Part shown: positions 1 through 56,784 of the stretch, one piece after another
Layout of the letters: every line of letters begins with the position of its first letter
Numbering within the stretch: the stretch's first letter is position 1
Assembly: GCA_963575645.1 (NCBI GenBank)
Contig: OY754466.1
Span: 17,462,001-17,526,000 of the forward strand
DNA: 64,000 nt
Source of the DNA: Xanthostigma xanthostigma
Taxonomy: Eukaryota; Arthropoda; Insecta; Raphidioptera; Raphidiidae
Direction: 5' to 3'
Program-made: the position numbers and the translations under genes
Notes under the pieces: model-generated
Seen by the model: the letters and a program-made list of their open reading frames with translations, nothing else
Told to the model about the DNA's origin: nothing
The model's database searches: none

Positions 1-293
1 AACTGCTACAAGGATTCTTTCGCTATTCATTTTGTAATTTTTAGGAGCCCGATTAAGAGTTAAAAAAAAAATATTATGGGAAACTTCCTAATTCTTGTTT
101 AGTGTAGTTTTGTTATTTTGAATTTCTTCAAATTGATAGCAAATTTTTTGAGAATTTTAAACAAATGGCTAGAAACCGTTTCAATACAGTAACTGAAACC
201 ACTGTTTTGACAGCAAAAAACTAGCAAATCGTGGTTTCTTTGACTTATATTATTTCGAACTTTTAAATAACTTCCGAATGTTTTTAATTTCAG

Positions 294-3200
294 CCGCGGC
301 TACCAGAGAGCCGATCTACCTTCACAACTAGACAACACGATTTGCTGCCAGGATTTGCCAAGTCGCAATCGCAGCGCGGCGTAAGTGTACTTCTCGGATC
401 AAATAAATCTATGGTGCCGATTTTTTTTTTCTCGATAAAACTAGTGCAGTTTCTTTCGAAGCCGTATGTAGAATCAGTGATAAAATCGGCCGGCTGGTAA
501 ATTGCCAACCGGATCGTAAAAATAAAATCTCGTCGGTTTTCACAAAAAAAAATTTCAAAAAACTAATAATATGTTTTTATTCTGCAAATAGATTCAGTGT
601 CGATTAAAAAAAGTTTATTTTTTATTTTTTGCGTCTTTTTGACTTTCGAAAAATACATTGTCTTTTTCTATTTGCAGAGCGTCACAAAACGAAATAGTCA
701 ACAAGGCAACAAAGCGAAAACAAAATCGCAACAGCCGAACGTAATTCAATTTTCACTGTCACTGAACCAGGAGGTAAAACTGCACGAGACTGAAAACGCA
801 TGGAAACCTGCCCGGTTCGTGAACAAGAGCGAACTGACCGAAGAAGAGGCAAAGACTAATGTGGGTAGCTTCTCGACATATTGTCAAGTTCAGCGACGAC
901 GATTTTGTTTCGACATACTCATTTGTAACATATTTTGTTTGTTGGTATTTCAGGAACTAGTTAGGAGATTTAGAGCCATACTTAACAAATTGACGCCGCA
1001 GAGATTTTCTACTTTAGTGGAACAAGCGAGAACTCTAGAAATCGATTCGCTCGAGCGATTGCAGGGCATAATTGAAATTGTTTTCGAAAAGGTATGTTGT
1101 TTGTTTGTTTCACAATTTATAACTCGCCATAATCGGACGCACGGCCGGAAAATTCAAATTGCAGTGGCGATGTTTACAGATCGAACGACACCGGGCTGAG
1201 AAAATATTTTCACCGCATTTGGTTGACACTCAATAAACTATTTGTTGCCAAAATGTATTGATCCATCAAAATTACCGAATCGAATCGTTCAAATTATCTG
1301 ATTCGACTGCGGTAAAATCGATAAGATCAAACCACCGAACAAGTATTTTGTTCGCTACTTTTGAATTTAAATTTAAACTATTCGACTTAAATTGTTCATA
1401 TTTGTTTGGCCTTAACCGATTTAAATAGACTTGAACTGTATACTAATGAGTGATTTGTTGGAAAATGGATTTTTCGACAATAAAATGTTGTTATTTATCG
1501 CGATCTTAATGTAGTGTTCTGTTTTTCCAGGCTGTGGACGAGCCCAATTTCTCGGCGAACTACGCTCTCTTATGCAGAGAAATGGCGCTGACAGAAGTAA
1601 GAATGTTTTTATTATTTTTTTTTTCATCCTCTCAAACTCTTAGGTACGGTCATGCGTTGCATATGAGTCAAATGAGACACCAATTAATTTCCACACCGAA
1701 TCATTAAGTTATTTGATTTACCGAGTCAAAGTTCGATTAAAATATTAAAATAATTGTCTTGTTATCAATCGCTTATTAATATAAAATTCTTATAATCCAG
1801 TGATTATATTGACAGCTTCAACTATAACGCATATAAATAATTATTAACTAATCGTTTGATAACACAATTTTTTGTGGCGTTATATAAACAGCATAATTAA
1901 AAGAATATCTTACAACAATATTAATAATCAAAATGTCTATTCTAATAATATAGTTGTTACAAGTTTAATCATTAATGAGTTGAATTTTTGATGGATGATA
2001 ATTGCGTGGTAGAATTATCAAATATAAGAAATTAAAATTTGTATTTAATGTCAAATCGCACTCATGAACGTCCTTAAGAGGAACTATTTGTATTTGTGCG
2101 GCAAAGTCAAAATTCGTCTAGATGTGATATGAACGAAATATTGAACTCTTACCTGTATATTCGAAAAATTACGACAAAACATTGTACACAATCCGAATAG
2201 ATATCTGCTGGGATTTTTAAAGTTACGATTTGATTCCGATATGAAATTTAGATTACACTTTAAACCCTTGCTATTATTTTAATTTCTTTCAAAGTGCAAT
2301 TTTCATTTGGTGAAGAGATGTATATAGACTTTATTTATGCTTTTTTTTTTTTTTGCTTTATATGCTTTGGACGGGAATAATCACTATGCCAGGAAGCTTT
2401 TTTGACGACGCGTTCAGCTTTACAGTGGATTTCGGTTATACTGACGTAACACTTAAGTCCCTTGAATTTAAAGTTTTCTTTCTATATAGCGGCGGAATTA
2501 TGTTCTCCTTTCATTGTCGCTATAACCGAAATCCGCTGTATTATTATTTTTTAACCGTGACTTCCAGAACGACTGATGTCGATTGAAAATCAAAGTTGCA
2601 AAAACTTTTGAAGCGCTCTCCCAAAAAACCTAAATTGCTATGGAGGCCGATTAACGTGGTTAGGGCGCTGTTCTTTGAAACAAACTATAATGGGTTCGAA
2701 TCCCAGCTCCCTCACGAATGCTTAGCGATGTCTTTTAATTTAATTCCGTGCTATTAAACGCCAATGGCCATAGCTGTTGCGCGTTCTACAATAAATAGCG
2801 GCAACGATACAGAGAAGCGGTTCTCAATAGTGTGGTATGTGGGCCCTATGAAGATTCGCGAAATCTCTCAGTGGGATCCATTTTTCTTTTCTACTACACC
2901 AGAAAATCGCCTGAAAAGACCAATTCCCATTGTAAATAGTTACAATAGTTGTAAAATGTCGCCGTTGCATCTCTGAATTCAAAATGCGTCTGTAACCAAA
3001 AGAGTTTGTAAACCGCCGATGTAGAGTACTTTACCATACCGATGTGCGGTAAGCGAAGGCAACAAAGAGCTTAGAAAATATGTCTCCTTCTAAGTAATTC
3101 CCTGGTTACTCCGACATATATTAACATAGCATATGTTTTTAACTAATGACAGTAACCAATCAGTGCCAGCTAACTGTTTCCACAAAAAATGATTGCATCC

Positions 3201-6200
3201 TTATTGTGCTAACATGAGTTTGGTACAATAAAAAACATATAGTTAATAAGTACATAATTTTCGTATGGGCTTTTTTTATCATTTTACCGAAAATGAAATT
3301 CGTAATAAAACTTTATAGTGTAGATTGGATAAGTAAAAGCTTGTGCATTCCTTGGACAAAAACACAAAAAATGTCTGTTGCCAAACATTGCTTCATTTTA
3401 TCACATATCATTTTAATTCGAGCTTTTTGTATTTTTATCATTTTCTAATTGCTTATCGTTTTTTCACCATGTTGATTAACAAAACCAGCATCTAACTGAC
3501 AGTTTAATTTGAGGACACCATTTTTGATTAATCGTTTTCATAAGATGACGTTTTTGCTGAAATGTTGAGAATTGACGTCATTAACTTTTTGGGTGACATA
3601 CTTTCGACCTGTACTGTACTGAATAGAACAAAAGTAGGCCTGGGTAATTGCTCCGTAATCCTTGGTGTAAGATGACTAACTTCGAAGATTACACTCCTTC
3701 AAGGAATGAAAGTGTTTTCAAATTTTTTTTTTCTTTTTAATAGAAAAATTTTCATAATATGAGAAACTGATATAATTTCTACCATTGATAAAAAAATAAA
3801 ACAAATTACAATGTCCGTTTTCGGTATTTTAATGTGGGAATACTGATGCGGACAGAATGAAAGCATTCGTTGAAACGATATTTTTCAGCTCGTTTTTATC
3901 AAAATTTAGTTTGGAAAGCGATCTTTTTCTGTCAATCATTTGTTTTTGTTTAGTACAATCAAATGTTTTACACGACAGAGAATTTGAAAGCGACACTGGT
4001 CCTGAATATATAAAAACTGTAATTAAAATTTTTTGACAGTGTTTTCTGCAAATCGGCATAATAACCAAAAACAATTTAGGCATTGTAGTTTTTAATTTGT
4101 GGACAAACTTGTATTATGATGTTAGCTTCTCGGATGTGATTTAGCTGTTGTTGCAAAATCATTGCTATGTAATAACCGTCGCGTGGAAAAATGTATTTTG
4201 GTCCATATTCAGTAGATCCTAACATTTTTTTCAAAATTAATAACTAAAATCTGTTACACATAGAGTGCATTCGTCTTGGGCACTTAGACGTGTTCAGCTC
4301 TGTCAAGCGATGTTTTTAGTGTTTAAGTTGACACTGTGAGCGTTGACAAAGTGCGCTTATGCTTGAGCTCAATGATCGGCACAGCGCTCAAAACGCTTGT
4401 CCTCTCGAGTTAGTGAAGCAAAAGCGTTAGCGCCAAATCGGTTTAACTACTAAAACGAACACAGTATAAGCGTTTGTTCGCGTCATGTTTAATTAAGGCA
4501 TCTTAACCTAACTTTTGTGTGTATTGAAAGCAAATGAAACTTAAAATTATTTTTCTTTGAAAAATTGAAAATTCATTGCTCACATTATACTCAATTAATT
4601 TGGAAGATCCATTATCGCTTGAAAGATTCCTAAATTATTTACATCCGCCATAATGATGCCAACTGACGTTTACCACGTGGTTATCCCAAAGCGAACGGTA
4701 TTTTATTGAGTAACGTTAACGTTCAAAAGCCAAGACGAATGTCGATAAATAACGCTGAAAGCGTCTAAGCGTCCAAGATGAATGCACCCATAGATAATAA
4801 TACCGGTGCTACATGGAGTAGCAACTGTTGCACGAGTCCCACGCGCTGAAATTGCAGGGGTGCTGCTTAAATATATATCAAGTGTCCTCACTGACTGACT
4901 GACTCATCAACACACATTCAAAACTGAAAACGACTTAAGCTAGAAACTTGAAAGTCGGCAAAATTCCTGAATTAAAAAATAATTAGACACTGAAAGAACT
5001 ACTCAAACTGTTGAACGGAGAGGAGGTGGGTTTTTCGAGTTCGTATCAACACGCGCTGAAATTGCAGGGGTGTTGTTTAAATATATATCTAGTGTCCTCA
5101 CTGACAGACTGACTCATCAACACACAGTCAAAACTGAAAACGACTTAAGCTAGAAACCTGAAAGTCGACAAAGCTCCTGAATTAAAAAATAATTACACAC
5201 TGAAAGAACTACTCAAACTGTTGAACGGAGAGGAGGTGGGTTTTTCGAGTTCGTATCAACATTAAAATGAGTGAAACGCTTGGATTCTAAATTCTACCCG
5301 AATGAAGCCGAGTAGGTACAGCAGTTTGTAAAGAGGCCAAACTGACTGTTTAGGTGAAATTAGATGCGGCACTGGATAAATGTTATTCAATTTTTCTCAT
5401 TCCGATGAAATTTCATTTTTATTGCGACAGATATCACTGACTTTTTCCATAAAAAGCTTTTTTTTGCTGATGCTAGTTTTTGGTAGTGTCACAAAACATT
5501 TTCATAGATTGTTAGAAAATTGGTTCCAAAATTGATTATACTAAAATAGTTTTAGGCTTGGAAGGATTATTCCACGACTGACTGCCTCAAATACTTATAA
5601 AGCAATTAAGTTGGTAAATATAACACACTAATCGGCTGTTTATTTCTCGCGCACTTTTTTTTGATGCTCATTTGTTAAACAACAAAAGCAATTACCGACG
5701 CGCATGAGCAGATAGCGTGAAAACAAAACAGTATTGATCATTGCTGCCAACCGTTGTGATTTATTACTTCAGTCGTGAAATAATCGTAATATAAAATTGT
5801 GAAAAAACATATTGTATACTATGAGGATTAATTCGAATTTCACACGTTTTTTCATGACAGTGGACCAAAGATATGGCTACCAATGTAGAGGGACTAATTG
5901 GCCTAGATGCATTTAATAAAGTATTCACTAATTTGCAGGTAAGAAAAAGATCCAAGTTAATAAAAAAAAAAAAAAAAACAGTAGTTCCTCTCTTTTTTTT
6001 GCCTGAACAATAACGGGCATGACGTCGGATTTATTTATCGTGCCAAAAAAATCGCACGCAAGTCGTAACACGCCGCCTTCTGAAGCCGTCACGCATGCTT
6101 AAATAGGCCGACGACTGCGCACCCACACCCCTGCTTAGCGGTACTTTCCTGAATGGAGTTAGTGACGTCGATTTTAAAAACCATTTATCATCTGAAAAAC

Positions 6201-9200
6201 ATACTCGAGTTTTTGAGCGCTTTTTTTGTGTACGTGTGTGTGTGTCTGCTATTGTGATTAACCAACGACCTTGATTAACCCATTAAAAACAAATGATGCC
6301 TAAACAAAGTCATAACCGAACAAATGCGTATTTTGCAAAAAATATTAGTATGAATCGACGTTAGCTGTGCATGTCTTGAACCAGAAATACAGCAAATGCA
6401 ACAATGCCTAAATAAAGTCAAATAAACGCGTGTAGTGCTAAAAAGATCATCCGTCTCTGTGAATTAGCATTAACTGCGCATGCCTTGAATCAGATATCCA
6501 TTCGAAAGTCCATAAATACATGAACTGCTAGTCGAATTTCAAGACTTTTCGCTTAAACACTAAAATCTACGCTTGGGTTATTTAATTTGTTACAGTCGTC
6601 TGCAAATGCTTGAACAAAGCTCTATGTTCTTATGCTGTCAATGGTGGCAGCGCTGGGAAGTTTTTTTTCTAACCTGTCACTTTCGCATTTACAGTAAAGC
6701 GAGCGAAGTTGTTTCGCAATTGTTTGTTGAAATTTTAACCGTTTTGGACTACAGTTTTGCTTCGGTGATTATTTTTAAGGATAGCTATTGAAAATTGGTG
6801 TTTGGTTTCTTATATGCCCGCGAGGGTGACTTTTAGCCGAATGTTATAAAAGTCGGAAGAGTAAACATTTCGTTAAACTTGGTCTAAGGTGTCAAATATT
6901 GAGTGTTGAGATTCTGAATCGTATTTTTATACTTTTCAAACATGCGTCTGTCAACTGGTCGATACGCGAAATCGTAGAAATCGAAATGTCTTTTTGTTTT
7001 ATTAAGCCGCCCCCAGAAAGAATTATTGTCGATAGGCTAGACACAATGGCCGTAAGTCGGAATGAATCCCGCGATATGCTTCGTGTAGCACTTTAGATTT
7101 GTGTTTAAAATAATTACTTTTCGTATCTTTTTTGTATGTGCATTTTTTTAGAATGTGTCTTCTTCTTTTGTTTAGGTAACGGGACACAACGGTGAATTAA
7201 CTAATTTTAGAAAACTTCTCATTACGAGATGTCAACTACATTTTGAAAAAAGCAATGTAGATGAAACTGAGCGCAACGCAAAATTAAAAGAAATTGAAAA
7301 AGAAAATGACCCTGTAAGTATATATTTTATTGTTTTATCAGAACAAACTTGCTCAGGTGATAGCCATTCAAGGATAAGACCATCAACTGTATTTGCGATA
7401 TTGAAATTTGGTACCGCAATGCTATTTGAAAGAAAGTTTTGAGGCTAGAAAAATTGAGAACATTAAATTTTATGGCACAGACTTTTTTAATAAATAAAAT
7501 TATCGACCAATTTATTTATTGAAAAGTTCTAATCAGACGTTAATCAAAGATTTGAACATACTTTTTTATATATAATGTTTCATTTGTTAACAGGATAAAA
7601 AGAAGGAACTTCAGTTAGCATTAGAAGATGAAGATAGAAGAAGTCGAGTCCGTTCTGTTGGAAACGTTAGGTTTATAGGTAAGTATTATTGGCGTTGCAA
7701 ATTCGATATTTTTTTGTCAAATTTGGTCATTAATAATCTTCGTTTATCGTCGTAAAATACAGTGTGTTCACTGATAGTAACAACAGTGAATAATACTAGG
7801 GACAAAAAAATCTCAATAGGTCTTTATTTAACTCGAAACTTACTATTGGAAATTAGAGCTGTAACAAACCGTATGTATTCGTTACTGAGTAATGGGTACA
7901 TCGTCTGACTCGAAGTAACGAATCGTTACTTACAAATTCATTTCGTTACTCGCATGTTTCGTATCTATGTCAGTTCGATTCGTTTGATACGGTTATACGA
8001 GCACAATGTGTTATACTAATATACTTATAAGTATTCATAAAGTACGAAGTCATTACTCATGTCGTATCACTATCACATATGCGACGCGCTTTGGTGCGAA
8101 GCTACATGCTTATTGCTTGATGCTGTTAAGTACACTATTGTATGTCATATGAAAAGTACCGAGTAACGTAACGATACGAAAGTAACGGGTACTGGTTCTT
8201 TAAGTAACGAATACATACGGGTACACAATTTCTCATTACTTTTACAGCTCTATTGGAAATTGCTGAGGTATATTTTCTTGTACTTCATCGTTAACCGGAA
8301 GTGTAAATGCATTTTATTCTCTATAAATTCATATAAAATTGTCATAAAGTTACATAATAAAATATTTGAGAATAAACGTTACCGCTTTATTATTTAAACA
8401 GACTAATAATTAATTATTAATAATAATTTAAACGTGTGGAGTGTTATTAAACGTAATTGTTAAGTCTGTTTGTTTATTGCTAGTAGAAGTTTTGTTCCAA
8501 AAATATGTATTGAAGGAGATCATAAATAAATCTCCTTCAATCTGTTTGTTTAATTTATAAATTGATAACATTTTTCTCGAATATTTTCTTATGTAATTTT
8601 ATTAAATTTTATATGAATTTATAGAGAAAAAATAGAGATTTTGAAAATGTAAAAAATATATATATTTCCACTTGAAATTTCGAGTTGAAATCAAACTATT
8701 TTATATCTAGTAGGATACAAGAATTATTCATTGTTATCACTATCGGTGAATACAATGTATATGTTACGGCTAATACGAGAAACTAGTTTATTCGCAAATT
8801 AACCGGCGTCAAGGATAAATGCCGAATATGTCTTAGTTTCTCGCTTTTTCGCCTATTATCAAGTGCAAGCAGGTTAAAACGCGAATTATCCAAAAGCAAC
8901 CGTATAAAACGTTTATTGTCTAGGTATTCTTATTTTTATGATAAATCTATTTGTTTTTTATCAGTGTTGTTTTATTTTATTTGGAGAACATTTGTTATTT
9001 TGTATTATTTTAATAAAAATTACAGCTCACTACTTATACGCACGTCTATGAATTTGAGGTTAATTGCTTACTTAACATATTATCCAGCTAATTCGCGAAA
9101 GAGCCAAGAGCTATCGGATATAACCGATCATATTGTCTAATTCGCGTTTTAACCGAATAATTTGCGAAAATTGTTAAATCATATTTCTTTCTTTGGTAAT

Positions 9201-12200
9201 AACCGGCTGTATTGGTTAATTCGGGTACAGTAGAGACGCGTTAATCCGAACCTTTATAATCCGGATTCTTTGGTAATTCGGACAGTCGTTTGATAGTATT
9301 ATGTACATTGTAGTCCGGATTTTTCCAGTTTCAGTAATCCGGATCATGAAACTTAGTTATTGAGTAGCTGTACCGGCACTATTTGCGTCAACACTATTGG
9401 CCGGCGGTGTGTTACAGTTACATACATATTTGTTGCCGGAGAAGTTAGGTGGTTTTAGTATGTATGTAGTCGCTGTCAAACTCAGATAGAATTACATAGA
9501 GAACGCACTATGGCGCCGCGTAAACGATCACACGTTACTTTATCACTGCAAGTAAAAAACGAAATTCTTGACAAATTAAAAAAGGGAGCCTCAAATAAAC
9601 AGTTAGCCGCAAAATATGAGCATTTTAGTTTGTTTTCTTGATAATTAAAATTACATCCAGTAATCCGGACATTTTGATAATCTGGATCAGCTGTGTTTTA
9701 ATTAGTCCGGATTATCGCGTCTCTACTGTATTAGCCGGTTAATTCGCGAATAAACTAGTTTCTCGTATTAGCCGTAACATATATATATATATATATATAA
9801 TTTTTTTTGCTGTATTCCAGGTGAACTCTACAAACAAAATATGCTTACGACCAAGATTATGTTGCGTTGTATACGTTGTTTGTTGGAACCGATTGAGGAG
9901 GAGGGCCTCGAGTGCTTGTGCAAATTACTTTCGACCGTCGGTAAAGACCTTGAAATGGGAAAAAATGAACATCTCAATCCTTACTTCAATATGATGCAGG
10001 AGATCGCCGACAGAAAACGAGGCCACAAAATCAGTAGTCGTGTCAGGTGAGTAGTGTTTTCCCGCCGTCGCAGAACTTTAGACTCTGTCAACTTCGAAAA
10101 TCCAATTGATACGTGTTCGAAATCAAATTGCTACATCGATATTCTTGTTTTGTAGATTCATGCTTCAAGACGTGATCGACATGAGAAAGAATAAGTGGGT
10201 GCCTCGGCGCCAAGACGTTAATCCGAAAACAATCGATCAGATCCAAAAAGAGGCCGACACAGAACAATTTAACGCCCAGATGCTAAACTCCGCACCGCTG
10301 AACACACCGCGAAGGGACGATCGCGATCGCAGCATGGGCGGAAATGACAGAAGACGGCGGAACGTCACCGACGACGGTTGGACTGCTGCGGCGTCGCGCA
10401 ACAACCGCACACCTTATTCCGTCGAATCGTCTAAACTGAAAAACCTCAACAAGTCGGTAAGTCATCTGTTTCTTTAGATCTTCTATTTCCGAAAGATCTA
10501 CTACTATAACTAAGAGACTAAAAATCACGGGCAACACTGTTTGTGCTTCTAATGCCGCCACAAAAAAGTTCCTTTTGTAAATATGGAAGCTACTTACTAA
10601 TGGCAATTGTTTAGTCTGATATTTTTTTTTTTTTTTTAATCGTGGGAATGTCGGAAAAATATCAGTGTTCTTTTTTTTTTTTTTAGACTACCACGGATGA
10701 GGTACAGTTGGGCTCTAAAACGTTGTTCGGTCAGTGGGGACGCGGCAGCAATATCAAAGCGCAACAATCTCTTGTTACCAACACGACGAACATGTACGCA
10801 CCTCTCGAACACATGCCTTCTGAACCGGAGAGGCCGAGACCAATGAGTATGAGTGAGTGTTTTGCTATTTTTTAAGCGCAGAGTATCCTAGTTAAAAGTA
10901 CGGGCAGCCCAACGTCAAAACATTTTGTACTTATAGCTCTCTTAGCTGTTTGAATTAATCAAGTTTGTAAAACTTTTAATTGAGACAAAATCGCATCCAA
11001 AGAAAATTGATTCGAATCTGCTTTTTTTCAATAATAATATAAATGTCCTGGTTCGTGCAGCTTACTGTAAAATTGAACACGTTTTGAAATTTTTATGCGT
11101 TCACAAGTTGGTTGAATTTTTCTCATCGCGAGGCAATTTTCCGTTTTGTACAGGTTCTCTTGACTCAATCGTCAAACTTTTTGGCGAGGTGATATTTTAA
11201 AGCATGTATGAAATCCAAACAACTTGTAAATAATACAGTCGAGTTAATTTGAACAGTTTATTTTTTTTTTTTTTAGTTTAAAATTTATCTGCCATAACAA
11301 ATTATCAGTTGCGTTACATCTATAAAGAGATACAACATAGCTAGAAAAAGTTTCCCTTCTTCTTAGTAGTGGAGTTCAAAAAAATCTTTTAAGAAGGTAG
11401 TGCCATCTGTTGTGTGATGGTAGCGTTACAAATATAACCAAGAACAACGTTCAAGGTTAAGTTATCGGACTGTTGTGGGGTTCAGATTAACGCGACCAAA
11501 CGTGCTATTGAATATTTATTGCATATGTTGTGTAAATCGCTTGCTTACATTTGCAGCTGAAGTGGAGAATCAATACTGAAACTACGTGATTTATAAACAC
11601 TTAGCGCTTTCTTTTCTTTATATCTGCACTTCATGCACTGGGACAGATACTTTCATCGTTGGTTGATTTTTCGAACATCTAGTTTAATATGGTCTCTACT
11701 CTACAAGTAATAAATGGCGTGACCTTGACGGTCAATCTTCAACGCCATGTTTATAAAATGGCGCCATGGGTTTAAATCATAAGTTGGGTTATGTAATACG
11801 GTCAATCCAATTCTGATGTTTTGTTATGGTTTTTAAATTTTTTTTGTTTTATTTGGTACTTTACAGCCTTATCGACCGTTAGAAACGAGAACAGAGCTCG
11901 ACAAAACAAAAAATACAAAGTGGATGACAGAAACGGATCGCATAACAACAACGACAGATCGACACGTAACGAAAGTAAATTTTGCACCAAATCACTAAAA
12001 AAAATAAAAGTTTCATGCTCTCTATTCTTATTCTATTTTTTTTTTTTTTTTTTTTCAAAATTAACGTTTTGGCCTCGACTATTTTTTGACGACACTGCTA
12101 TTGAGATACTACTGTTTATCGTACTGTCTTTAATCGGACAGTTGTATTCGTGTACACACGATAATTTTGCCTTGGGTTTTTTATATGCTTTAGCTTCAGT

Positions 12201-18250: not shown

Positions 18251-18461
18251 TGTTTAAAACTGTGTTATTGAATGGGTCCAAACAAAATGTTTCTCAAAAT
18301 AACAGCTAATATTTATTAATAATTGCATTTTAATCTTCTTTATAATCTATAATAACATCTAGTGATGTCAGTTCAACAAAACTAGTTATGTAACAATTAA
18401 TATTTTTTTAGGAGTATCTTTTTTAAAATTATGTCACCTACTGAATTTTAATTGCGACCTT

Positions 18462-30347: not shown

Positions 30348-30409
30348 ATACCAATACATCACATATGTGCTAGAGTGTCAATATTGTGCTATGTAGAATT
30401 TAAGGGTTA

Positions 30410-30749
30410 ATAAATATAGTTTAAAAAAAACTGAAAAACACGCTTTATATCAAACTAAAAAGTGAAAAATAAATATAGTTTAAAAAAAAACTAAAAAACA
30501 CGCTTTATATCGAACTAAAAAGTAAAAAATATTTTTTTAAAAATAAGCTTAAAAAGCGTGGGGCGCTTTGTTCCACATTTTCGTACATCGAGCGCCCCAC
30601 GCTTTTTAAGCTTATTTTAAAAAATTATTTTTTACTTTTTAGTTCGATAAAAAGCGTGTTTTAAAAGTTTTTTTTAAACTATATTTATTTTTCACTTTTT
30701 AGTTTGATATAAAGCGTGTTTTTCAGTTTTTTTTAAACTATATTTATTT
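30410..30749. mobile_element. Long AT-rich palindrome at the border of unit C
   Basis: Two roughly 170-bp arms are inverted copies, each with a repeated TAAATATAGTTTAAAAAAAA / ACACGCTTTATATC module. They meet at a GC-rich hairpin (AAAAAGCGTGGGGCGCT, GAGCGCCCCACGCTTTTTA) around 30550-30607. Unit C sequence begins about 60 bases further on. Confidence 0.85.
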
Positions 30750-32337: not shown

Positions 32338-32403
32338 TATGGCTACCAATGTAGAGGGACTAATTGGCCTAGACGCATTTAATAAAGTATTCACTAATTT
32401 GCA
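32338..32403 (+). CDS. Unit C copy of the possible alternative first exon
   Basis: The 22-codon ATG frame matches 5872-5937 with one silent change and runs into the donor GTAAAA. Joining to 33547 would be in frame and would give the otherwise startless unit C a start codon. Expression is unknown. Confidence 0.25.
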
Positions 32404-34026
32404 GGTAAAAAAAAGATCCAAGTTAATAAAAAAAAAAAAGTAGTTCCTCTCTTTTTTTGCCTGAACAATAACGGGCATGACATTGTCGGATTTATTTATC
32501 GTGCCAAAAAAATCACACGCAAGTCGTAACACGCCGCCTTCTGAAGCCGTCACGCATGCTCAAATAGGCCGACGACTGCGCACCCACACCCCTGCTTAGC
32601 GGTACTTTCCTGAATGGAGTTAGTGACGTCGATTTTGAAAACCATTTATCATCTGAAAAACATACTCGAGTTTTTGAGCGCTTTTTTTTATGTGTACGTG
32701 TGTGTGTGCTATTGTGCAAAAAATATTACTATGAATCGACGTTAGCTGTGCATGTCTTGAATCAGAAATACAGCAAATGCAACAATGCCTAAATAAAGTC
32801 AAATAAACGCGTGTAGTGCTAAAAAGATCATCTGTCTCTGTGAATTTGCATTAACTGCGCATGCCTTGAATCAGATATCCATTCGAAAGTCCATAAATAC
32901 ATGAACTGCTAGTCGAATTTCAAGACTTTTCGCTTAAACACTAAAATCTACGCTTGGGTTATTTAATTTGTTACAGTCGTCTGCAAATGCTCTATGTTCT
33001 TATGCTGTCAATGGTGGCAGCACTGGGAAGTTTTTTTTTCTAACCTGTCACTTTCGCATTTACAGTAAAGCGAGCGAAGTTGTTTCGCAATTGTTTTTTG
33101 AAATTTTAACCGTTTTGGACTTCAGTTTTGCTTCGGTGATTATTTTTAAGGATAGCTATTGAAAATTTTTGTTTGGTTTCTTATATGCCCGCGAGGGTGA
33201 CTTTTAGCCGAATGTTATAAAAGCCGGAAGAGTAAACATTTCGTTAAACTTGGTCTAAGGTGTCAAATATTGAGTGTTGAGATTCTGAATCATATTTTTA
33301 TACTTTTCAAACATGCGTCTGTCAACTGGTCGATACGCGAAATCGTAGAAATCGAAGTGTCTTTTTATTTTATTAAGCCGCCCCCGGAAAGAATTATTGT
33401 CGATAGGCTAGACACAATGGCCGTAAGTCGGAATGAATCCCGCGATATGCTTCGTGTAGCACTTTAGATTTGTGTTTAAAATAATTACTTTTCGTATCTT
33501 TTTTGTATGTGCATTTTTTTAGAATGTGTCTTCTTCTTTTGTTTAGGTAACGGGACACAACGGTGAATTAACTAATTTTAGAAAACTTCTCATTACGAGA
33601 TGTCAACTACATTTTGAAAAAAGCAATGTAGATGAAACTGAGCGCAACGCAAAATTAAAAGAAATTGAAAAAGAAAATGACCCTGTAAGTATATATTTTA
33701 TTGTTTTATCAGAACAAACTTGCTCAGGTGATAGCCATTCAAGGATAAGACCATCAACTGTATTTGCGATATTGAAATTTGGTACCGCAATGCTATTCGA
33801 AAGAAAATTTTGAGGCTAGAAAAATTGAGAACGTTAAATTTTATAGCACAGACTTTTTTTATATATAATGTTTCATTTGTTAACAGGATAAAAAGAAGGA
33901 ACTTCAGTTAGCATTAGAAGATGAAGATAGAAGAAGTCGAGTCCGTTCTGTTGGAAACGTTAGGTTTATAGGTAAGTATTATTGGCGTTGCAAATTCGAT
34001 ATTTTTTTGTCAAATTTGGTCATTAA

Positions 34027-34634
34027 CACGTTGACTGCCGCTATAGCATAGAAAAATTCGGGCCCCACACGCCACTTCTTTTTTTTTTTGTTTATAGTGT
34101 AAAAAAATGTTAAAAAACAATATTTCAAGTGTTTAGGAGGTTTCTATTTGTTTATAAACAGAAAAAAAATATTTTTTTATATGGTGACACATTGGTCTCA
34201 CGCGGCACCCAAAAGCTATAAAAGCCAATTTTGCCTTATGATGAGACCAATGTTGAATGTGTCACCACAATATAGAATATTTGCGTTCTTCTATATTATT
34301 AAATAATATGTTTTTTAATTATTATGTAATTAGGTATATACGAAAAATAAATTTTTGAAATCATAAAAATTACATAAATTTATATAACATACATTTTTAG
34401 CACAAAAGGTGGATATAGCCGTATGAAGCCACATTGGTCTCGCGCACGCACAGGCCGAAATATGTATCAGGTTCGTCATGCCGAGCTCTTTATAATTGAA
34501 TGCATTTACGGAGTCCAGTGCGGTTTTACACGACAAAATACATCGGTCGAAGTTGTGAGTCCATATTGGTCTCGCGCAGCATATAGTGCCATTTTTGTCG
34601 TGAGACTAATTAGTCTCATACGGCAGTCAACGTG
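34027..34634. mobile_element. MITE with CACGTTGACTGCCG termini, unit C only
   Basis: Inverted ends CACGTTGACTGCCG and CGGCAGTCAACGTG bound 608 bp that are absent from the same intron in unit A (near 7734). The interior repeats TTGGTCTC in several places and has no supported gene. Confidence 0.85.
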
Positions 34635-34766
34635 TAATCTTCGTTTATCGTCGTAAAATACAGTGTGCTCACTGATAGTAACAACAGTGAATAATACTAG
34701 GTACAAAAAAATCTCAATAGTTCTTTATTTAACTCGAAACTTACTATTGGAAATTGCTGAGGTATA

Positions 34767-36590
34767 TAATAATAATAATAATAATAATTTATTACTTCCA
34801 TGAAAATACAGTTATTTATAAACAAACAAAATACACATAAATGAAAGTATATAGGTTCCTTCCAAGGAAAACCTGTGCTGAAGAAACCATTAAGAAAAAA
34901 AGAGATGATGTGGACATTTTAATTAAAGCTTAAGTGGGTTGAATTACCCTGGACACAAAACATTTGAATAGAAAAAAAAAATTAAATGTAATATCAAAAG
35001 AAAAACTAAAGCACATTATATAAGTTTTACTGGCAAATACAAAATAAATTTTCAACATTTGCTTGGTTCAAGAGCCAAGATTTGAGTAATGAACTAAAAA
35101 TATTTTTATTGTGACAATTTTGAATATGGACAGGTAATATATTAAACAAAAAGGGAGCAGTAAATAAAAAATATCTTCTAAATAATGATTTATAAGGTCT
35201 AGGTACACCCATTTTTGTGTGCCTGAGTCTATAAGGATGTTCCACAGTAAGACGTGTATTACCACTTCTAATATAAAATATTTTTAGAACCTTATAAATA
35301 TATAAATGTCTAACGGGCAACAGCGATAAGGATTGAAATAATGGAAATGAATGTTCACGGTTATTCTTGAATAGTAATGTTCTTATAATTTTCTTTTGGA
35401 TAATGGATACACGATTGAAAAAGTTGAGATAAGCACCGCCCCAGCATGCAATACCATAATTCAATTTTGATTGGATGAGTGCATAATAAAATGATTTGAG
35501 AAGATTGACTGGACAACGAGACCTCAAAAAATACATTTTGCATAGGCCGTAGCGTAAAGATCTAGACAAATTAGTTATGTGGCATTCCCAATTAAGTTTT
35601 GCATCGATATATACACCTAAATACTTATAGTTGGATACTTTTTCTAGAACAATACACTCGTCATTTTTACATGCTATGGTGTCTATGTTGTTACACCTGA
35701 CAGAGTGATAAATCAGGTCAATATTACATGCTGTACTACCATAAATATTAAACAAAATGTATTTGGATTTGTCACTAAGCTTGAGTCGATGATAAGCAAA
35801 CCAATTCCTTAAGATATTTAAATCGGCTTGCATGCAACTAATGATTTCTTCATGCGTCTTACCGGAATAGCATAGTGCGATGTCGTCTGCAAAAGCTGTT
35901 AAGCAGCCGTTGAAGTCGATATTGCATAAGCCATTTATGTATACTAAAAACAAAACTGGGCCTAGGACTGACCCTTGTGGAACTCCAGATTTTATTACGG
36001 ATGCAGCACTAAGTTGGTTAGAGATTTTAATTTGCTGGATCCTGTTTAAAAGATAACTTTTAAACCATTTGTAGTTGACACCTCTGATTCCTGCTTTATA
36101 TAACATATTTAACAACAATTTATGATCTAATGTGTCGAACGCTTTGGAAATATCAATGAACAGTCCTGCTATTTTATTGCCTACGTTTATACCATTATAT
36201 AGTCTATTTGTGAATTCAAGTAGGGCTTCTTCGGTGCTTTTATTTGCTGTAAATCCAAATTGTTTTAAGCTAAAAAAGTTGCATTTGTTTAAGAAAAGTA
36301 CTAGTCTTGTTTTCATTAGGGACTCTAAAAGTTTTGAAAAGATGGACAGAAGAGAAATCGGACGGTAGTTAGATATATTTGAACGATCACCTTTTTTATA
36401 AAGAGGAATGACAACTGCGTTTTTTAAAATATGTGGAAACTCTCCAGAACTAAAACTAGAATTGATTAGCTCACAAATTGTTGGGGCTAAGATGTCTACA
36501 ATATTTTTTAGTATATTTGATGAGATCCCATCAGAACCAGGAGCTTTACCAGTTTTGAATGAATTGACTAAGCTTATAATTTCATCAGAT
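34767..36590 (-). mobile_element. 5'-truncated LINE inserted in the unit C intron
   Basis: A (TTA)n-type 3' tail lies at 34767-34787 and the element reads leftward. Flanks GAGGTATA and TATTTTCTTGTAC are joined without it in unit A (near 8270), which fixes its borders. The reverse-transcriptase frame is uninterrupted, suggesting a recent arrival after the duplication. The 5' part, including any endonuclease, is missing. Confidence 0.92.
35027..36590 (-). CDS. Reverse transcriptase of a non-LTR retrotransposon (5' truncated)
   Basis: About 520 element-encoded codons are open. In order they carry SFKTGKAPGSDGISSNILKN, the VVIPLYKKGDRSNISNYRPI and SLLSIFSKLLE region, GLFIDISKAFDTLDH, SGVPQGSVLGPVLFLVYING, and the catalytic FADD box (TAFADDIAL). 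A C-terminal region with LNYGIACWGG follows. The layout is that of Jockey/CR1/L2-type elements. The open frame runs about 25 codons past the truncation point into host intron, which is not part of the element. It lacks the N-terminal endonuclease and so is unlikely to be autonomous. Confidence 0.92.
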
Positions 36591-39290
36591 ATTTTCTTGT
36601 ACTTCATAGTTAACCGGAAGTGTAAATGCATTTTGTTCTCTATAAATTTATATAAAATTGTCATAAAGTTACATAATAAAATATTCGAGAATAAACGTTA
36701 CCGCTTTATTATTTAAACAGACTAATAATTATTAATCATAATTTACACATGTGGAGTGTTATTAAGCGTAATTATTAAGTCTGTTTGTTTATTGTTAGAA
36801 GTTTTGTTCCAAAAATATGTATTGAAGGAGATCATAAATAAATCTCCTTCAATCTGTTTGTTCAATTTATAAATTAAAATATTTTCTTATGTAACCTTAT
36901 TAAATTTTATATGAATTTATAGAGACAAAATTGAGATTTCGAAAATGTAAAAAAGAATATATATTTTCACTTGAAATTTCGAGTTAAACTTTTTTTTATA
37001 TCTAGTAGGATACAAGAATTATTCATTGTTATCACTATCGGTGAATACAATGTATATATATATTTTTTTTTTTTTTTGCTGTATTCCAGGTGAACTCTAC
37101 AAACAAAATATGCTTACGACCAAGATTGTGTTGCGTTGTATACGTTGTTTGTTGGAACCGATTGAGGAGGAGGGCCTCGAGTGCTTGTGCAAATTACTTT
37201 CGACCGTCGGTAAAGACCTTGAAATGGGAAAAAATGAACATCTCAACCCTTACTTCAATATGATGCAGGAGATCGCCGACAGAAAACGAGGCCACAAAAT
37301 CAGTAGTCGTGTCAGGTGAGTAGTGTTTTCCCGCCGTCGCAGAACTTTACAGTTTAGACTCTGTCAACTTCGAAAATCCAATTGAAACGTGTTCGAAATC
37401 AAATTGCTACATCGATCTACTTATTTTGCAGATTCATGCTTCAAGACGTGATCGACATGAGAAAGAATAAGTGGGTGCCTCGACGCCAAGACGTTACTCC
37501 GAAAACAATTGATCAGATCCAAAAAGAGGCCAACATAGAACAACTTTACGCCCAGATGTTGAACTCCACACCGCAGAACCCACCGCGAAGGGACGATCGC
37601 GATCGCAGCATGGGCGGAAATGACAGAAGACGGCAAAACGTCACCGACGACGGTTGGACTTCTGCGGCGTCACGCAACAACCGCACACCTTATTCCGTCG
37701 AATCGTCTAAACTGAAAAACCCCAACAAGTCGGTAAATCGTCTGTTTCTTTAGATCTTCTATTTCTGAAAAATCTATTATAACTAGAGACTAAAAATCAC
37801 GGGCAACACTGTTTGTGCTTCTAATGCCGCCACAAAAAAGTTCCTTTTGTAAATATGGAAGCTACTTACTAATGGCAATTGTTTAGTCTGATATTTTTTT
37901 TTTTTTTTTAATCGTGGGAATGTCGGAAAAAATATCAGTGTTCTTTTTTTTTTAGACTACCACGGAAGAGGTACTGTTGAGCTCTAAAACGTTGTTCGGT
38001 CAATGGGGACGCGGCAGCAATATTAAAGCGCAACAATCTCTTGTTACCAACACGACGAACATGTACACATCTCTGGAACACATGCCTTCTGAACCGGAGA
38101 GGCCGAGACCAATGAGTATGAGTGAGTGTTTTGCTATTTTTTAAGCTCAGAGTATCCTAGTTAAAAGTACGGGCAGCCCAACGTCAAAACATTTGGTACT
38201 TATAGCTCTCTTAGCTGTTTGAATTAATCAAGTTTGTGAAACTTTTAATTGACACAAAATCGTATCAAAAGAAAATTGATTCGAATCTGCTTTTTTCAAT
38301 AATAATATAAATGCCCTGGTTCGTGCAACTTACTGTAAAATTTAACACGTTTTGAAATTTTTATGCGTTCACAAGTTGGCTGAATTTTTCTCATCGCGAG
38401 GCAATTTTCCGTTTTGTACAGGTTCTCTTGACTCAATCGTCAAACTTTTTGGCAAACGATATTTTAAACTTTAAAGCATGCATGAAATCCAAACAACTTG
38501 TAAATAATACGGTCGAGTTAATTTGAACAGTTTAATTTTTTTTTTTAGTTTAAAATTTATCTGCCATAACAAATTATCAGTTGCGTTACATCCATAAAGA
38601 GATACAATATAGCTACTTAGTAGTGGATTTCAAAAAAATCTTTTAAGAAGGTAGCGCCAACTGTTGTGTGAACAAGAACAACGTTCAAGGTTAGGTTATC
38701 GGACTGTTGTGCGGTTCAGATAAACGCGACCAAACGTGCTATTGAATATTTATTGCATATGTTGTGTAAATCGCTTGCTTACATTTGCAGCTGAAGTGGA
38801 GAATCAATACTGAAACTACGTGATTTATAAACACTTAGCGCTTTCTTTTCTTTATGTCTACACTTCATGCACTGGGACAGATACTTTCATCGATGGTTGA
38901 TTTTTCGAACATCTAGTTTAATTAAAATTGAACATATGGTCCCCGAAGGGGGAAAACTACAAGTATAAAATGGCGTGACCTTGACGGTCAATCTTCAACG
39001 CCATGTTTATAAAATGGCGACATGGGTTTCAATCTAAGTTGGGTTATGTAATACGGCCAATCCAATTCTGATGTTTTGTTATGGTTTTTAAATTTTTTTT
39101 TGTTTTATTTGGTACTTTACAGCCTTATCCACCGTTAGAAACAAGAACAGAGCTCGACAAAACAAAAAATACAAAGTGGATGACAGAAACGGATCGCATA
39201 ACAACAACGACAGATGGACACGTAATGAAAGTAAATTTTGAACCAAATCACTAAAAAAAATAAAAGTTTCATTCTCTCTATTCTTATTCT

Positions 39291-39329
39291 ATATATATAT
39301 ATATTATTATATATATTATTATATATATT

Positions 39330-39380
<51 letters not shown>
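39291..39380. repeat. (AT)n microsatellite in unit C
   Basis: A long run of AT, with some TATTAT interruptions, directly abuts the left end of a Helitron. Confidence 0.9.
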
Positions 39381-39381
<1 letters not shown>

Positions 39382-39384
<3 letters not shown>

Positions 39385-39812
39385 TTATATATAAAAATAA
39401 CGTGTCACATGTTTGTCCGCGATAAACTCCTAAACTACTGAACCGATTTTAAATTTGATTTGCACACCGTGTGCAATTCGACCCAACTTGAAAGATAGGA
39501 TAGCTTACATTTCAATTTATGGTCGCAATATTATTTTATTGCAAATTATTTGTCTATTCCTTGGCAGTCATAATTATCTGTTGACTGGATTGAGTGGATA
39601 TTCAATAGATGGCGCAACGTTTCATATAAGCTACAATTCAATAGCATAACCACCACGTGTTGCTGAGGTTAAGGTATCGAGCACGACGGCGCAGCCGGAG
39701 TGCTCGAATATATATATATATTATCGCGTTAAAATAAAAACGCTTTTCGTGGAGACCAACTTTGCAACGGTGGAAATCTACAAATTCGAGCGAAGCCGAA
39801 CCGGGCCGCTAG
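39382..39812 (+). mobile_element. Short non-autonomous Helitron
   Basis: The element starts TCTTTATATATAAAAATAAC, then CGTGTCACATGTTTGTCCGC, and ends GGGCCGCTAG between A and T, as Helitrons do. A GC-rich short hairpin (GAAGCCGAACCGGGC) precedes CTAG. No Rep/helicase is encoded. Its insertion lies where unit C lost the 81-nt eIF4G linker exon. Confidence 0.8.
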
Positions 39813-40240
39813 TATATATATATATATATATATTTAGGGGTTTAAAAGTGTTTTGGGGCCCAAAAATACCGAAAAAATTCTCAGAATCGTTTCAAATTTG
39901 AAATTTAACCCTTTAGTAATTATTTAAATGTGCTGCTAAAATTTTAATAAAATCGGCCCGACAGGACCGGACTTACAAATTTTATGAAAACGCAAGTTTA
40001 ATAATATGGTTTTACATACTGAAGGGTGTATATAATTTGGTACAGGTGTTGAATTGCTATGTAGTATTGAAATTAAGTAAAAAAATTTTGTTTTAAGGGG
40101 TGTATTAAGGGGTAATTTTTTTTATTTTGTCCAAAAACAAAGTTAAGTTCATACAAAAGAGCCACACTACTTATAAAAGCAAATACACTATATTGTCGGC
40201 AGGGTTTCGCACTGCGACCCGAGTTTTTTACAATTCAGAT
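39813..40240. other. Unassigned sequence replacing deleted eIF4G intron and exon
   Basis: After a TA repeat the sequence (for example TTTTGGGGCCCAAAAATACC) matches nothing in units A or B. No coding sequence or inverted ends are visible to me. It rejoins eIF4G intron sequence at about 40240. Confidence 0.5.
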
Positions 40241-42346
40241 GTTTATTAAAAAATTAATACAAATACCGGTGGAAAATTTTGGGAACTAAGAAAAACTCAG
40301 TGTTAAAACGAATTCAGTACTGCCAGCGAAAAGTTAAATGTTTTGTTTCTGATATGACTTTGAGCTTTAAATCTGAATTTATTTCGTTTCAACAAAATGG
40401 CAACTCCATTTAGTTGAAAACAAATGACATTCTCAATTCTACATTTAAAGTTAAAAGTCGTATCGGAAATCAAGCATGAGAGTGATTTCTGATCCGTATT
40501 TGTTTTGCAATTCAAGATGGTCGCGGCTCCCGAAGCGGTAGCCAAGCCAGATCGCGAAAAGCTTCGACTGCCAGACAGCCTCCGATGCCGCCACTGAAAA
40601 CACCCGCGCGGCCAGTCGAGCCTCAATTGACACCTGAACAACTGGAGAATCGTATTCATAGTATCTTTGATGAATATGCAACCAACTGCATCACACTTTT
40701 GGTGAGTTTGTTTCTTTTTCTTTTTTTTTTTTATTTTATTGTGTAATTTCTCTGCTCTGTATTTATTTGCATACAACTGAAATATAAAATAATAACGAAC
40801 GCGTCATCTCGTTTCGTTCTTTCACAAGTTTTGTGTGATACAAAAATTTTTTTGTTTAACCACCGTTTAACCACTCAAAAATATATAAGGCGCTCATTTA
40901 AACCATTGACTACGTTAACCAATGTTTAAACGACAAAAACTAAACATGATACTTATTTGTTACAGGCATGTGAATGCGAAATATCCTCAATCTTTACCGA
41001 CTCGACCGTACACAAATTTGTACAGGAAATACACAACTACGTTTTGGAAAAATCAGCCGCGTCACGACAAACGGCCGGACAGCTGTTTGCGCTGTTGATG
41101 AGATCAGGCTCCTTACCTCCCGCTTCGTATTGCAAGGGACTCGAAGCGTTCCTCGAAGCTACTGATGATTTGACTATTGACATACCAAAACTGTGGGACT
41201 ATATTGCAGAAATGATTGGTAAATATCTGATTGTTATGTTATGGCAACGCTCTTCGATTCGGATATGGCTAGCAAAATATGAACTGACTAGCTTATTATA
41301 AACTTTACAAATTATATTCGATTTGTTTTTTGTTAGAACCGGTTGATGTCAACTTTTTTCACGTTTCAGTGCCTCCGTTGCTCGAAAAAGCTATCTCGTT
41401 CAGCACATTGCGAAGTAGTATCACCCTACTCATTACACAAGAGCACGCCGGCAAATTGCTTAACAGTATTTTAAAGCAGATCGTTGTCGCTAAAGGACCG
41501 CAGTTCGCGCGTCAACTGTGGAAGGAAGCGGACGTCAAGTTCCAAGACTTCATGCCTATCGATGAAGTTAGCGGCTTCCTTCGACAAAACGTGAGTTTTA
41601 CCATGACATTTTTTTTTTATTCTTCATTTGACACTGTGTAGAATTTTTGTAGACACACTCGGGTGAAGTTCTACAAATAATTTAGTAATTGTACTCACTG
41701 CAATACTGCATCGGCCGATACCGATAATCGGTCACAAGGCCGATATTGATTATACGTCTTGCCGAGAGGCTGTACTTGTAATAGGTACAAATTAGAGTGC
41801 TGCCCTTCAAAGCTAACTGAAAGAAAAAGATTCATGGAAATATTATATCAGGTGTGCTGTTCACTATATCGGAATCTTTATGGGAAGAGTCGATCATATC
41901 TGTCGAAGGATTTTTAGCTTGGGAAAAGAGTGACGATCCTGCCGAAAGAGAAGGGAAAGGTACTAATTCAAGTTTTGGTTATATATATATTTTTTTATTA
42001 AAACGGGTTATTTTATAATGATGCTTTAAACGATGAAAGTAGTGATATGATTTCTATATGATTCGACTATATAAAAATACTGAATTGATAAAAAAAAAAA
42101 CACACACAGTTTCGTTTGTTTCGTTGGAGGAAATGCTCACGCCTTGCGTTGTTACAGGTGTCGCTCTGAAGTCGTTGACCAGCTTGTTCACACTTCTGAG
42201 GGAAGGAGAAGACGAAGAGGAATCTTCCAATAGTGAAGCGGAGTGACTGAGGCGCCATCGCGGCCCGTGGCGCGCGCTACCACCTCCTCCGACTTCTTCG
42301 GTTCTCAACACCGGCATGACTGTTTTGAATTGAGGAGTCGCAAAGT

Positions 42347-42378
<32 letters not shown>

Positions 42379-42432
42379 CGTGCGCGCGTTTTCCTTCTCC
42401 AAAAGTGTTGTGCAAACATTGTATATTATTAT

Positions 42433-42600
42433 TAAAACTGTGTTATTGAATGGGTCCAAACAAAATGTTTCTCAAAATAACAGCTAATATTTATTAATAA
42501 TTGCATTTTAATCTTCTTTATAATCTATAATAACATCTAGTGATGTCAGTTCAACAAAACTAGTTATGTAACAATTAATATTTTGTCTTAGAAGTATTTT
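42433..42600. repeat. Duplicate of 18255-18415 downstream of eIF4G
   Basis: The stretch from AAAACTGTGTTATTGAATGG to about AACAATTAATATTTT matches unit A almost exactly. It marks the eIF4G to bursicon spacer as part of the duplicated unit. Confidence 0.9.
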
Positions 42601-42959
42601 TTTTTTTTAAGATTCATCTTGTTCTGATCATGACAAACTGAATACGTTATTAAGTGTATTTATTGTGAACAACTTTTTCTAACCCTTTAGGACCTGTGTT
42701 GAATTATGAGCGCATCATTTTTAAAACTATTCAATGAACATTGATCACCTAAATACCTTAACTAGCCCACAGAAAGTTCGCGCAATTTTTGTGTTTTTGT
42801 TTTTGTTGCCATAAACATAGTTCCCATCTCTAATGTAAGAATTGTGAATAATCAACTAGTACTTGTTTAAGTCCTGAACCGTCTTAAAAGCGGTAGGACG
42901 TTCTGGGGCAAAGGGGAGATTTATGTGACAACTGAGCAATCAGTACAGTGCGTTATAAC

Positions 42960-43475
42960 TAGTGATGTGCCGGATCGTTAAAAATGTATATCCGCGGATA
43001 CTGATCTGAATACGGATATTTGGTTTCAAGTTCCGCGGATACGGATACAGATCTTAACTTTCTTCAGTACGCGGCGGTAAATATTGCACATAGACCTTTG
43101 GAAAGAGACTATCTGTTATGGGAAAAAGTTATTGACCTCTTTAGAGTTAAATCTCATAACAGATTGTCTCTTTCCAAAGATCGATGTGCAATATCTCATT
43201 ATAAAGATAGTTTTTTAGTACCTTTGAGTTATGTACTATTGTTATGGTACTCACTACGATAAATGTTTGCAATATAAAGGTGCCAAATACGATTTTAAAA
43301 AATTAAAAATAATCTGAATGGAATTTAACAGTTTTTCATTATTACTTAATCACCTATATATAGGTATATAAAATTTCATCTATGAATTGATAATTAATAA
43401 GGTAAAAGATCCGCCAAAAACTAACGGATACAGATCTTTCTTCTCCCTCGGATATGGATATCCGGCACATCATTA
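42960..43475. mobile_element. hAT-type MITE, family 2, copy 2
   Basis: The ends TAGTGATGTGCCGGATCG and CCGGCACATCATTA are flanked by an exact 8-bp duplication GTTATAAC. At 516 bp it is the inverse orientation of the copy at 29837 and has the same central hairpin. Confidence 0.92.
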
Positions 43476-43928
43476 GTTATAACATGGTTATAACAACCAT
43501 TGATTTTGAACTTCCTAAACATGCCCTTGCGGTCTAAAATGTGTCCCTTAGGCCACAACAATCCTTTTCATTCGTTTTAATCTGAAAACTATGATAGGTA
43601 CCAAGATGGTTATAAAAAGTCTCGCTTTGATATGGTGCATTGGTTTCACAACAAAGGCATTTGCAATACTAACAGAAATTGATGTATGAAAATGAATTTT
43701 TCCAGTGCATTTTTAAATTTGCTCAGTTGACGAACGTATATAACCTGCAATCTTTAAATATAACGTAAAAGTAAATATTATATTTTTATTTGATAAACAA
43801 ATTATAATTATCAATATTGTCTTGAACAACGATATATCACATTATGTCACCTACTGAATTTTAATTGCGACCTTAAAAATGAAAGAAATCAAAATATTGA
43901 TATATAACAATAATTATTTCTTTAAAAT
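43476..43928. other. Spacer downstream of bursicon alpha
   Basis: This AT-rich stretch probably includes the bursicon alpha 3' UTR, since the gene is on the minus strand. From about 43850 the sequence ATGTCACCTACTGAATTTTA is shared with unit A at 18431. Nothing else is recognised. Confidence 0.4.
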
Positions 43929-45449
43929 CTATTGTGATGAAGATTTTCGAAAATGGTTGGATAATGGGCCTTCATCTGCGTAACCGGCGATTTCTTGAGG
44001 TATGATTGTGCTTTCCTCGACACCGGTGCAGGGACGGCACATACATTCTAAAGGTGCTTTCGTGGATACCTGCAATTTAAAAATAATTGTGATAGACGTT
44101 GATAATCTTAGCTGTCGGGCGTCTACTAATATCTAAAAATTACCAGGATAAAGAATTGAATTAAAATTTTTGTTTTTTTTTTTGTGTTAACGGCCTGTCT
44201 CTTGCCTTTGGCCAGTTGCCGTGTTCAAAAAATTGTATGATGAGAAAATCGAAGAGTGTTAAGTAAGCTTTATTTTAATAACAAAAGGAGTGTAGACAAA
44301 AGCCACAATAAAGGAGGTTAAAGAAGCGGTTATTTGAATGACATCACAGGCGATCGAACAATTTTCCGCAGTTTTGGAATACACAAATGCACAGAGATAC
44401 AAAATGGTTGATGATTTGACATTTCTGTTTTCTCATAATTAGTGAACTTAAAAAAAGTGTTTAAAAACAGTTATATTACACGTGCCGTATGGAAAAATAA
44501 TTCTAGGTAAGACGCAATAACGATATTTTACATTATTTTTGAACTTCTTGTGTTTGTGTGATACATTTTCTAACCCTATATATGTGCGAGTAATTATTTA
44601 TTTGTTAAAAGGAAAAGTGTTTACCAGACCATCGGTATAGTAATTAAGAAAAGTAACTTACTTTTCTAAATTTGCGTTCTCCTGGTTTTGCTTTCGGGCA
44701 AAATAATGAAACCGCCGCTTCTCTTTCGCCTGATTCTTGACAGCACATACATGATCTTTCCATTTGCCATATTTTGCTTCCAGAAACCTTTGACAAGCAC
44801 ATCAATTATATTATTATCATTGCAAGATAAGAAAAACTGTTAAACAAATTAAAACACGACGTTTTAATAGTTTAAATTCTCTAGGGATAAGTTGCGCATT
44901 GGGCATCCGCATTTGATTAATATTTTTATGCGTTAAGTTTTAAATAAAGGGTCTGAAAAAATATTAAAATCAGTGAAACGATGCCAATTATATTCAGTAA
45001 ACTTTCAAATACTTAATTAACACAACAATTACTACTGGCTATTTGTTGGATGTTAGGAATTGTCAGTTTGTTTTTCTTTTTTATAACTTTAATTACAACA
45101 TTCTTTTCATTTTTACGGATCTTTTGTAACAAATAACGATCGGTGGCGTTCACCCGACCTCGATGTAAAATTTAAACTGTATGGGATCAATCGTTTTCAA
45201 ATACACAGCATTTTAAAATTAAAAAAAATACCTGTAAGTAAGACGCGCATCGACCTATGCAAGCGAAACTCGGAATCGGTTTCGGCACACAGCCGGGATA
45301 TTGCAGTACGTGAATAACGGGTGTCAGCTGACATTCGTCAGCCGATGTGTGAGCTTTTACGCCTGGGGGCCGTGAATTCAGTCGCGGATCCATACACATG
45401 CTTGCCAGCAGACTGATTGTGACCAGCTTCGTGACCGTAGTCCACTCTG
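43929..45449 (-). CDS. burs: Bursicon subunit alpha (first exon not found)
   Basis: Bursicon is a secreted cystine-knot heterodimer that triggers cuticle tanning and wing expansion through the receptor rickets (LGR2). Exons on the minus strand are 45449-45232, 44787-44662 and 44069-43929 (stop TAG). The mature part starts near DECQLTPVIHVLQYPGCVPK and contains FACIGRCASY, GSKIWQMERSCMCCQESGER, LFCPKAKPGERKFRK and APLECMCRPCTG. The 11 cysteines expected of the family are all present. The first listed exon begins with a hydrophobic stretch (KLVTISLLASMCM) that is the rest of a signal peptide, so a short upstream exon with the start codon is missing. The acceptor is an ambiguous AGCAGAG run. The gene converges with eIF4G; a broken duplicate of the middle exon lies at 19381-19528. 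Confidence 0.95.
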
Positions 45450-45690
45450 CTAATAAAAAATAGTGTGCGTGTAACCTTTACGTGCTGTTGAAGTAAAACA
45501 TGTAAACAATGCATATTTTGTTAGCGGCAAAGAGTATTCATAGCCGAGATACCGAAGAGAAAGTATCGATACAGATAAATAAACAGGCAAAAATGTTGAA
45601 ATGTGAAAATTCGCTCTAGGACTCTTTAAAACTACAATTACAGACCAAGTTACAATTTTATTTATTTATATGATTTCTTCTGTATAATTC

Positions 45691-56778: not shown

Positions 56779-56784
56779 GGATAC

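Follow-up and report, generated by a model that had tools for sequence, protein, structure and literature searches.

Partial tandem duplication yields 5'-truncated gene copies, the unprocessed pseudogenes, and complex duplications that carry a templated insertion are known from replication template switching (MMBIR/FoSTeS). The locus described here lies in a 64,000-nucleotide stretch (the window) of the Xanthostigma xanthostigma assembly GCA_963575645.1, at 17.46-17.53 Mb of contig OY754466.1. It resembles unprocessed pseudogenes in that homology stops inside genes, exon-intron structure is kept, substitutions are neutral-like, and the copies are in direct orientation. Unlike the usual unprocessed pseudogenes, both of its ends lie in convergent genes, eIF4G and bursicon alpha, each of these neighbors retains a complete copy, and the junction is occupied by a third, partial copy. 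As in MMBIR/FoSTeS, the junction holds a segment copied from within the duplicated stretch, with a blunt or near-blunt join (26545/26546); in contrast to those systems, the side between units B and C has been overwritten by repeats, leaving a second switch unreadable. The locus also recalls false heterotype duplication, as portrayed in PMC9516828, in that nearly identical gene copies lie next to each other and differ by a few percent, and it departs from that portrayal in having no assembly gap, an excess of replacement changes, and copies that start inside exons. A literature search found no report linking bursicon, eIF4G, and a tandem arrangement. We consider it very probable that the locus is a true partial tandem duplication that cut inside two convergent genes and left a third fragment at the junction, and the event itself is an ordinary one, of a kind already known.

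Layout of the three eIF4G and two bursicon alpha copies

A self-BLAST of the window aligned units A and C (Table 1) as direct repeats in 13 collinear pieces, the first pairing 714-1871 with 30811-31968 and the last pairing 18944-19742 with 44264-45001. Unit B, a shorter third copy, matched unit A over 11919-15017/26546-29676 and unit C over 27606-29197/40239-41851. Units A and C measure 19.0 kb and 14.2 kb today, with substitutions at about 3% of sites across their matched pieces. The repeats are real, and they retain introns, as in partial tandem duplications and unprocessed pseudogenes. Both the self-BLAST and our reading of the exons agree with an initial annotation of this DNA, which had described three eIF4G and two bursicon alpha copies in one order and one orientation; its statement that each unit has separate insertions and deletions was likewise borne out by the later private indels found when A, B, and C were compared.

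Table 1. Positions in the window of the copies, their gene parts, and the sequences between them
Feature	Position	Strand	Details
Unit A (left copy): eIF4G 3' part (most of e2 to e16) and bursicon alpha fragment	714-19742	+	Self-BLAST, exon reading
eIF4G exons e2-e16 (15 read), open to stop at 16324	678-16324	+	Splice sites, frames, match to human eIF4G1
Bursicon alpha exon 2 relic in unit A	19378-19531	-	Split by 22-bp insertion
Stretch of ~6.8 kb interrupting the left bursicon intron	19743-26504		No counterpart in C; 244-bp satellite and piece of hAT transposase
Bursicon intron 1 piece, 41 bp	26505-26545	-	Equivalent to 45080-45120; 3 mismatches (38/41), E 4.5e-11
Unit B: eIF4G, starting inside e9 and running past e14, no e15-e16	26546-29676	+	Self-BLAST, exon reading
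Segment of ~75 bp in B and C, absent from A	27692-27770 and 40325-40403		Flanked by ACT repeats
Segment of ~223 bp in B and C, absent from A	28964-29187 and 41616-41849		Flanked by TTTTAT repeats
Dispersed repeat of ~500 bp between B and C	29848-30350
Unit C (right copy): eIF4G from inside e2, without e13-e14, and bursicon alpha 3' part	30811-45001	+	Self-BLAST
Bursicon alpha exons 3, 2, and 1, unbroken	44022-45339	-	Matched parts 44022-44072, 44659-44790, 45229-45339

The eIF4G exons read in unit A have AG acceptors, GT donors, and consistent frames, with the acceptor of e2 before 678 and that of e9 being the AG before 11867. Exon e8 closes with a complete codon and e9 opens partway through one; at least one small exon between the two was not located, so "open" covers only the 15 exons read. 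When joined, these exons matched human eIF4G1 with E values of 1.8e-77 and 8.2e-57, in alignments that span its MIF4G, MA3, and W2 regions. The gene starts to the left of the window. A motif pattern places the eIF4E-binding exon at about window coordinate -576, and this motif together with the human alignments identifies unit A as eIF4G. Long open frames farther left look like more of the N-terminal coding sequence. As had been proposed, the complete eIF4G C terminus is confined to unit A, where e13-e16 are intact. A search of the genome (623 Mb, 28 contigs) with the unit A MIF4G sequence matched only A, C, and a sequence 38% identical among 19 candidates, all of them scored. This last sequence lies on another contig (C10, 2247460-2248158) in a single 360-codon open frame, and we presume that it is perhaps a relative of DAP5/eIF4G2 type.

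The bursicon alpha exons were called from their match to a bursicon alpha probe; a Pfam DAN match on exon 1 alone gave an E value of 0.00088, below the curated cut-off. The gene is single within the 124 kb searched. The left copy consists of exon 2 and flanking sequence, and at that copy exon 1 had no match and exon 3 had only short, weak matches, the best of 17 bp. The right copy is thus the sole one with all three exons found, which agrees with an earlier statement that only unit C has an intact bursicon alpha; exon 1 itself is beyond unit C, outside the duplicated stretch. Exons of bursicon beta, called with a probe, lie at 51197-52740 on the minus strand, about 6 kb past bursicon alpha, so the two subunit genes are neighbors. 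Also to the right of the duplication is a CCCH zinc-finger coding stretch at 56779-57012 on the plus strand (zf-CCCH_10, E 4.6e-9).

Edges of the copies and the junction before unit B

All of the surplus copies are truncated inside a gene. Homology of unit C to unit A begins 36 bp inside e2 (C 30811, equivalent to A 714), unit B begins inside e9, and the left bursicon copy reaches into intron 1, where its homology ends at 19742, equivalent to 45001, and resumes in the 41-bp intron piece after the 6.8-kb interruption. This piece directly abuts the start of unit B, so that bursicon intron 1 is joined to eIF4G e9, and we read this boundary as a junction of the duplication. Within the interruption, an array of the 244-bp satellite (4.5 copies, 24101-25212) is followed by the end of a hAT transposase (25350-25607).

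The other side of unit B is less legible. The ~500-bp repeat and a palindromic stretch at 30409-30764 mask the B-C junction, and because they have overwritten it, the sequence that originally preceded the start of C in e2 is unreadable; with B and the repeats lying in its place, the original A-C junction cannot be seen directly. The ~500-bp repeat is present in opposite copies at 29848-30350 and 42960-43448 that are 93.6% identical. Elsewhere in the genome it has at least 39 copies, 94 to 97% identical among the matches listed (the whole query drew 3320 candidates at first look), and it may reflect a large recent burst.

These edges bear on how the surplus copies came to be incomplete. According to the initial annotation, the whole eIF4G-bursicon interval was duplicated or triplicated and the copies were then resolved by reciprocal loss of opposite halves, an account that fits the incomplete state of every copy: C is short of e13-e14, A of bursicon exon 3, and B of most of the interval. 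However, neither eIF4G 5' sequence next to C nor bursicon exon 1 next to A was found, and this account needs extra deletions that end at e2 and at intron 1, some of which the B-C repeats could hide. Since homology ends inside exon e2 and inside bursicon intron 1, there is no need to suppose that the absent 5' parts were ever copied. We have therefore set reciprocal loss aside as unneeded, and we regard it as improbable.

A partial tandem duplication would give the same layout directly. The two genes are convergent, and a tandem duplication of ~14 to 19 kb would have had its left breakpoint in eIF4G exon e2 and its right breakpoint in bursicon alpha intron 1; we infer that the points at which homology now stops are these original breakpoints. 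The left copy would then be the complete eIF4G because it is still joined to the eIF4G 5' part, and the right copy would be the complete bursicon alpha because it is still joined to the bursicon alpha 5' part. The surplus pieces, eIF4G in C and bursicon in A, would have had no 5' ends of their own from the start and would have decayed as point changes and deletions accumulated and elements inserted. Unit B would be a further copy of eIF4G e9-e14, put at the A/C junction.

Coding changes and reading frame in the surplus copies

Units A and C differ at 61 of 2070 exon sites (2.9%), a total that includes 5 intronic sites left of e9 with no listed difference among them, and at 212 of 6709 non-exon sites (3.2%); the counts omit the 36-bp match at 18428-18463 (1 of the 13 pieces), e13-e14, and the first e15 bases of a split codon. 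The exon differences comprise 42 replacement and 19 silent changes, a dN/dS of 0.61. Where all three copies overlap, dN/dS was 0.58 for A-B, 0.55 for A-C, and 1.23 for B-C, the last from 25 replacement and 6 silent changes, and there were 4 private amino acids in A, 8 in B, and 15 in C. Coding constraint is thus relaxed in the extra copies, and the pattern is as expected of one gene under constraint and two copies free of it. At the 40 A-C replacement codons, compared by eye with human eIF4G1, the human residue was that of A in 8 and that of C in 2, the others being neither or unaligned; this contrast is not decisive (sign test, P = 0.11).

The same counts speak to whether A and C are alleles laid side by side by the assembler, with B as a misplaced piece. 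False duplication of divergent haplotypes is a known assembly error, according to PMC9516828; alleles of a highly variable species could carry 2 to 4% divergence with many element insertions and indels, and the frame of C is well kept. Alleles of a conserved gene should nonetheless differ mostly silently, and a dN/dS of 0.1 predicts about 7 A-C replacements where 42 are observed. Uncollapsed haplotypes would be expected to have both alleles functional and silent differences dominant, whereas replacements here exceed silent changes, one supposed haplotype is without eIF4G e13-e14, and the other has a broken bursicon alpha. In addition, C and B begin inside exons, the sequence just left of A (103-713) matched only itself in the genome search (40 of 97 candidates scored), and there is no assembly gap, with 0 N in the 124 kb made up of the window and 60 kb of flanks. 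The coding changes look more like those of decaying paralogues than those of haplotypes. The decay pattern thus makes the assembly artifact that had been suspected unlikely, though it is still a rival to a true duplication.

One feature counts against a simple reading of decay. Exons of A and C show no indels in 2070 sites, whereas the 5798 non-exon sites contain 18 that lie outside simple runs. C has no stop in e2-e12, and AG and GT are preserved at those of its junctions that were compared, so that open frame and splice sites extend through eleven exons, from the partial e2 to e12. By our own arithmetic from the A-C counts, a neutral C would be expected to have about 3 indels and 1 or 2 stops. 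The frame of C is therefore better kept than neutral decay predicts. Frame-breaking changes are present elsewhere: the bursicon relic is broken, and e15 of C is out of frame because e13-e14 are missing, although e15-e16 are kept with 0 differences from A in 197 bp. Unit B has a net 243-bp deletion that spans e13, the following intron, and e14; with this large deletion set aside, it has no indels in the 910 exon sites compared and only 3, not counting those in simple runs, in 1899 non-exon sites. Unit C could, in principle, be transcribed from a new promoter and encode an eIF4G-like protein shortened at its N terminus, a newly arisen counterpart of DAP5/p97-type proteins, with MIF4G and MA3 but neither eIF4E binding, as C begins after the eIF4E-binding exon, nor W2. 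We regard this as highly improbable, and the fragments presumably have no function.

Two further sequences are found in C. A 556-codon open frame with an RVT_1 match (E 2.2e-30) lies at 35027-36697 on the minus strand and has no counterpart in A at that place; this retroelement was either inserted after the duplication or lost from A. An insertion of ~609 bp at 34027-34634 has inverted ends CACGTTGACTGCCG, and the TAATAA that A has at this site may be an excision footprint.

Divergence between A and C is also uneven along the unit, with 4.5% of sites differing in A 8418-14169 but 2.1% in the remainder. None of 200 permutations, in which sites were shuffled singly with no account taken of clustering, reached this contrast. 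The copies did not, then, diverge at a single rate. Gene conversion at the ends is our guess; mixed ancestry is another possible reading.

Relationship of unit B to units A and C

The initial annotation made B and C sisters on the basis of shared insertions. The segments on which it relied are indeed present in B and C and absent from A (near 27688/40320 and 29033/41640), but they are possibly deletions in A. A genome search with the 223-bp segment returned B, C, and one 50-bp match, so it is not a dispersed element; its insertion as a mobile element was not borne out, and a deletion in A accounts equally well for its sharing by B and C. The direct repeats around both segments fit either target-site duplication or microhomology deletion in A. 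Two amino-acid states common to B and C (at A 13769 and 13838), where A agrees by eye with human eIF4G1, weakly favor sisterhood.

The distances do not uphold it. Private differences numbered 13 in A, 16 in B, and 20 in C among 663 noncoding sites and 11, 10, and 21, respectively, among 713 coding sites. The copies are about equally distant from one another, and the B-C distance is not the smallest. Under a clock model, the noncoding counts gave a B-C stem of 0, with a 95% upper bound of 3 sites. These star-like counts would suggest copies of equal age, yet the uneven divergence between A and C does not fit so simple a history. A variant that is compatible with partial tandem duplication has the duplications occur sequentially, A-C first, with B then copied from C; the two segments and the two amino-acid states argue for this order, while the B-C distance, the star-like private counts, the absent stem, and the equally good account of the 223-bp segment by deletion in A argue against it, and we hold it as a possible but doubtful order of events. 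Being nearly equidistant from A and C, B probably dates from the rearrangement that produced them, through a template switch, or from soon afterward. We lean, on these sequence comparisons, toward a near-simultaneous origin of the copies.

In annotation of this genome, the exons of B and C should not be labeled additional eIF4G genes, nor the bursicon exon on the left a second bursicon alpha. The comparison also indicates that dN/dS between adjacent copies can, from the assembled sequence alone, argue for a decaying duplicate over uncollapsed haplotypes. When the breakpoints of a tandem duplication fall within two convergent genes, the event can be free of cost, leaving one complete copy of each gene and extra halves without a start.
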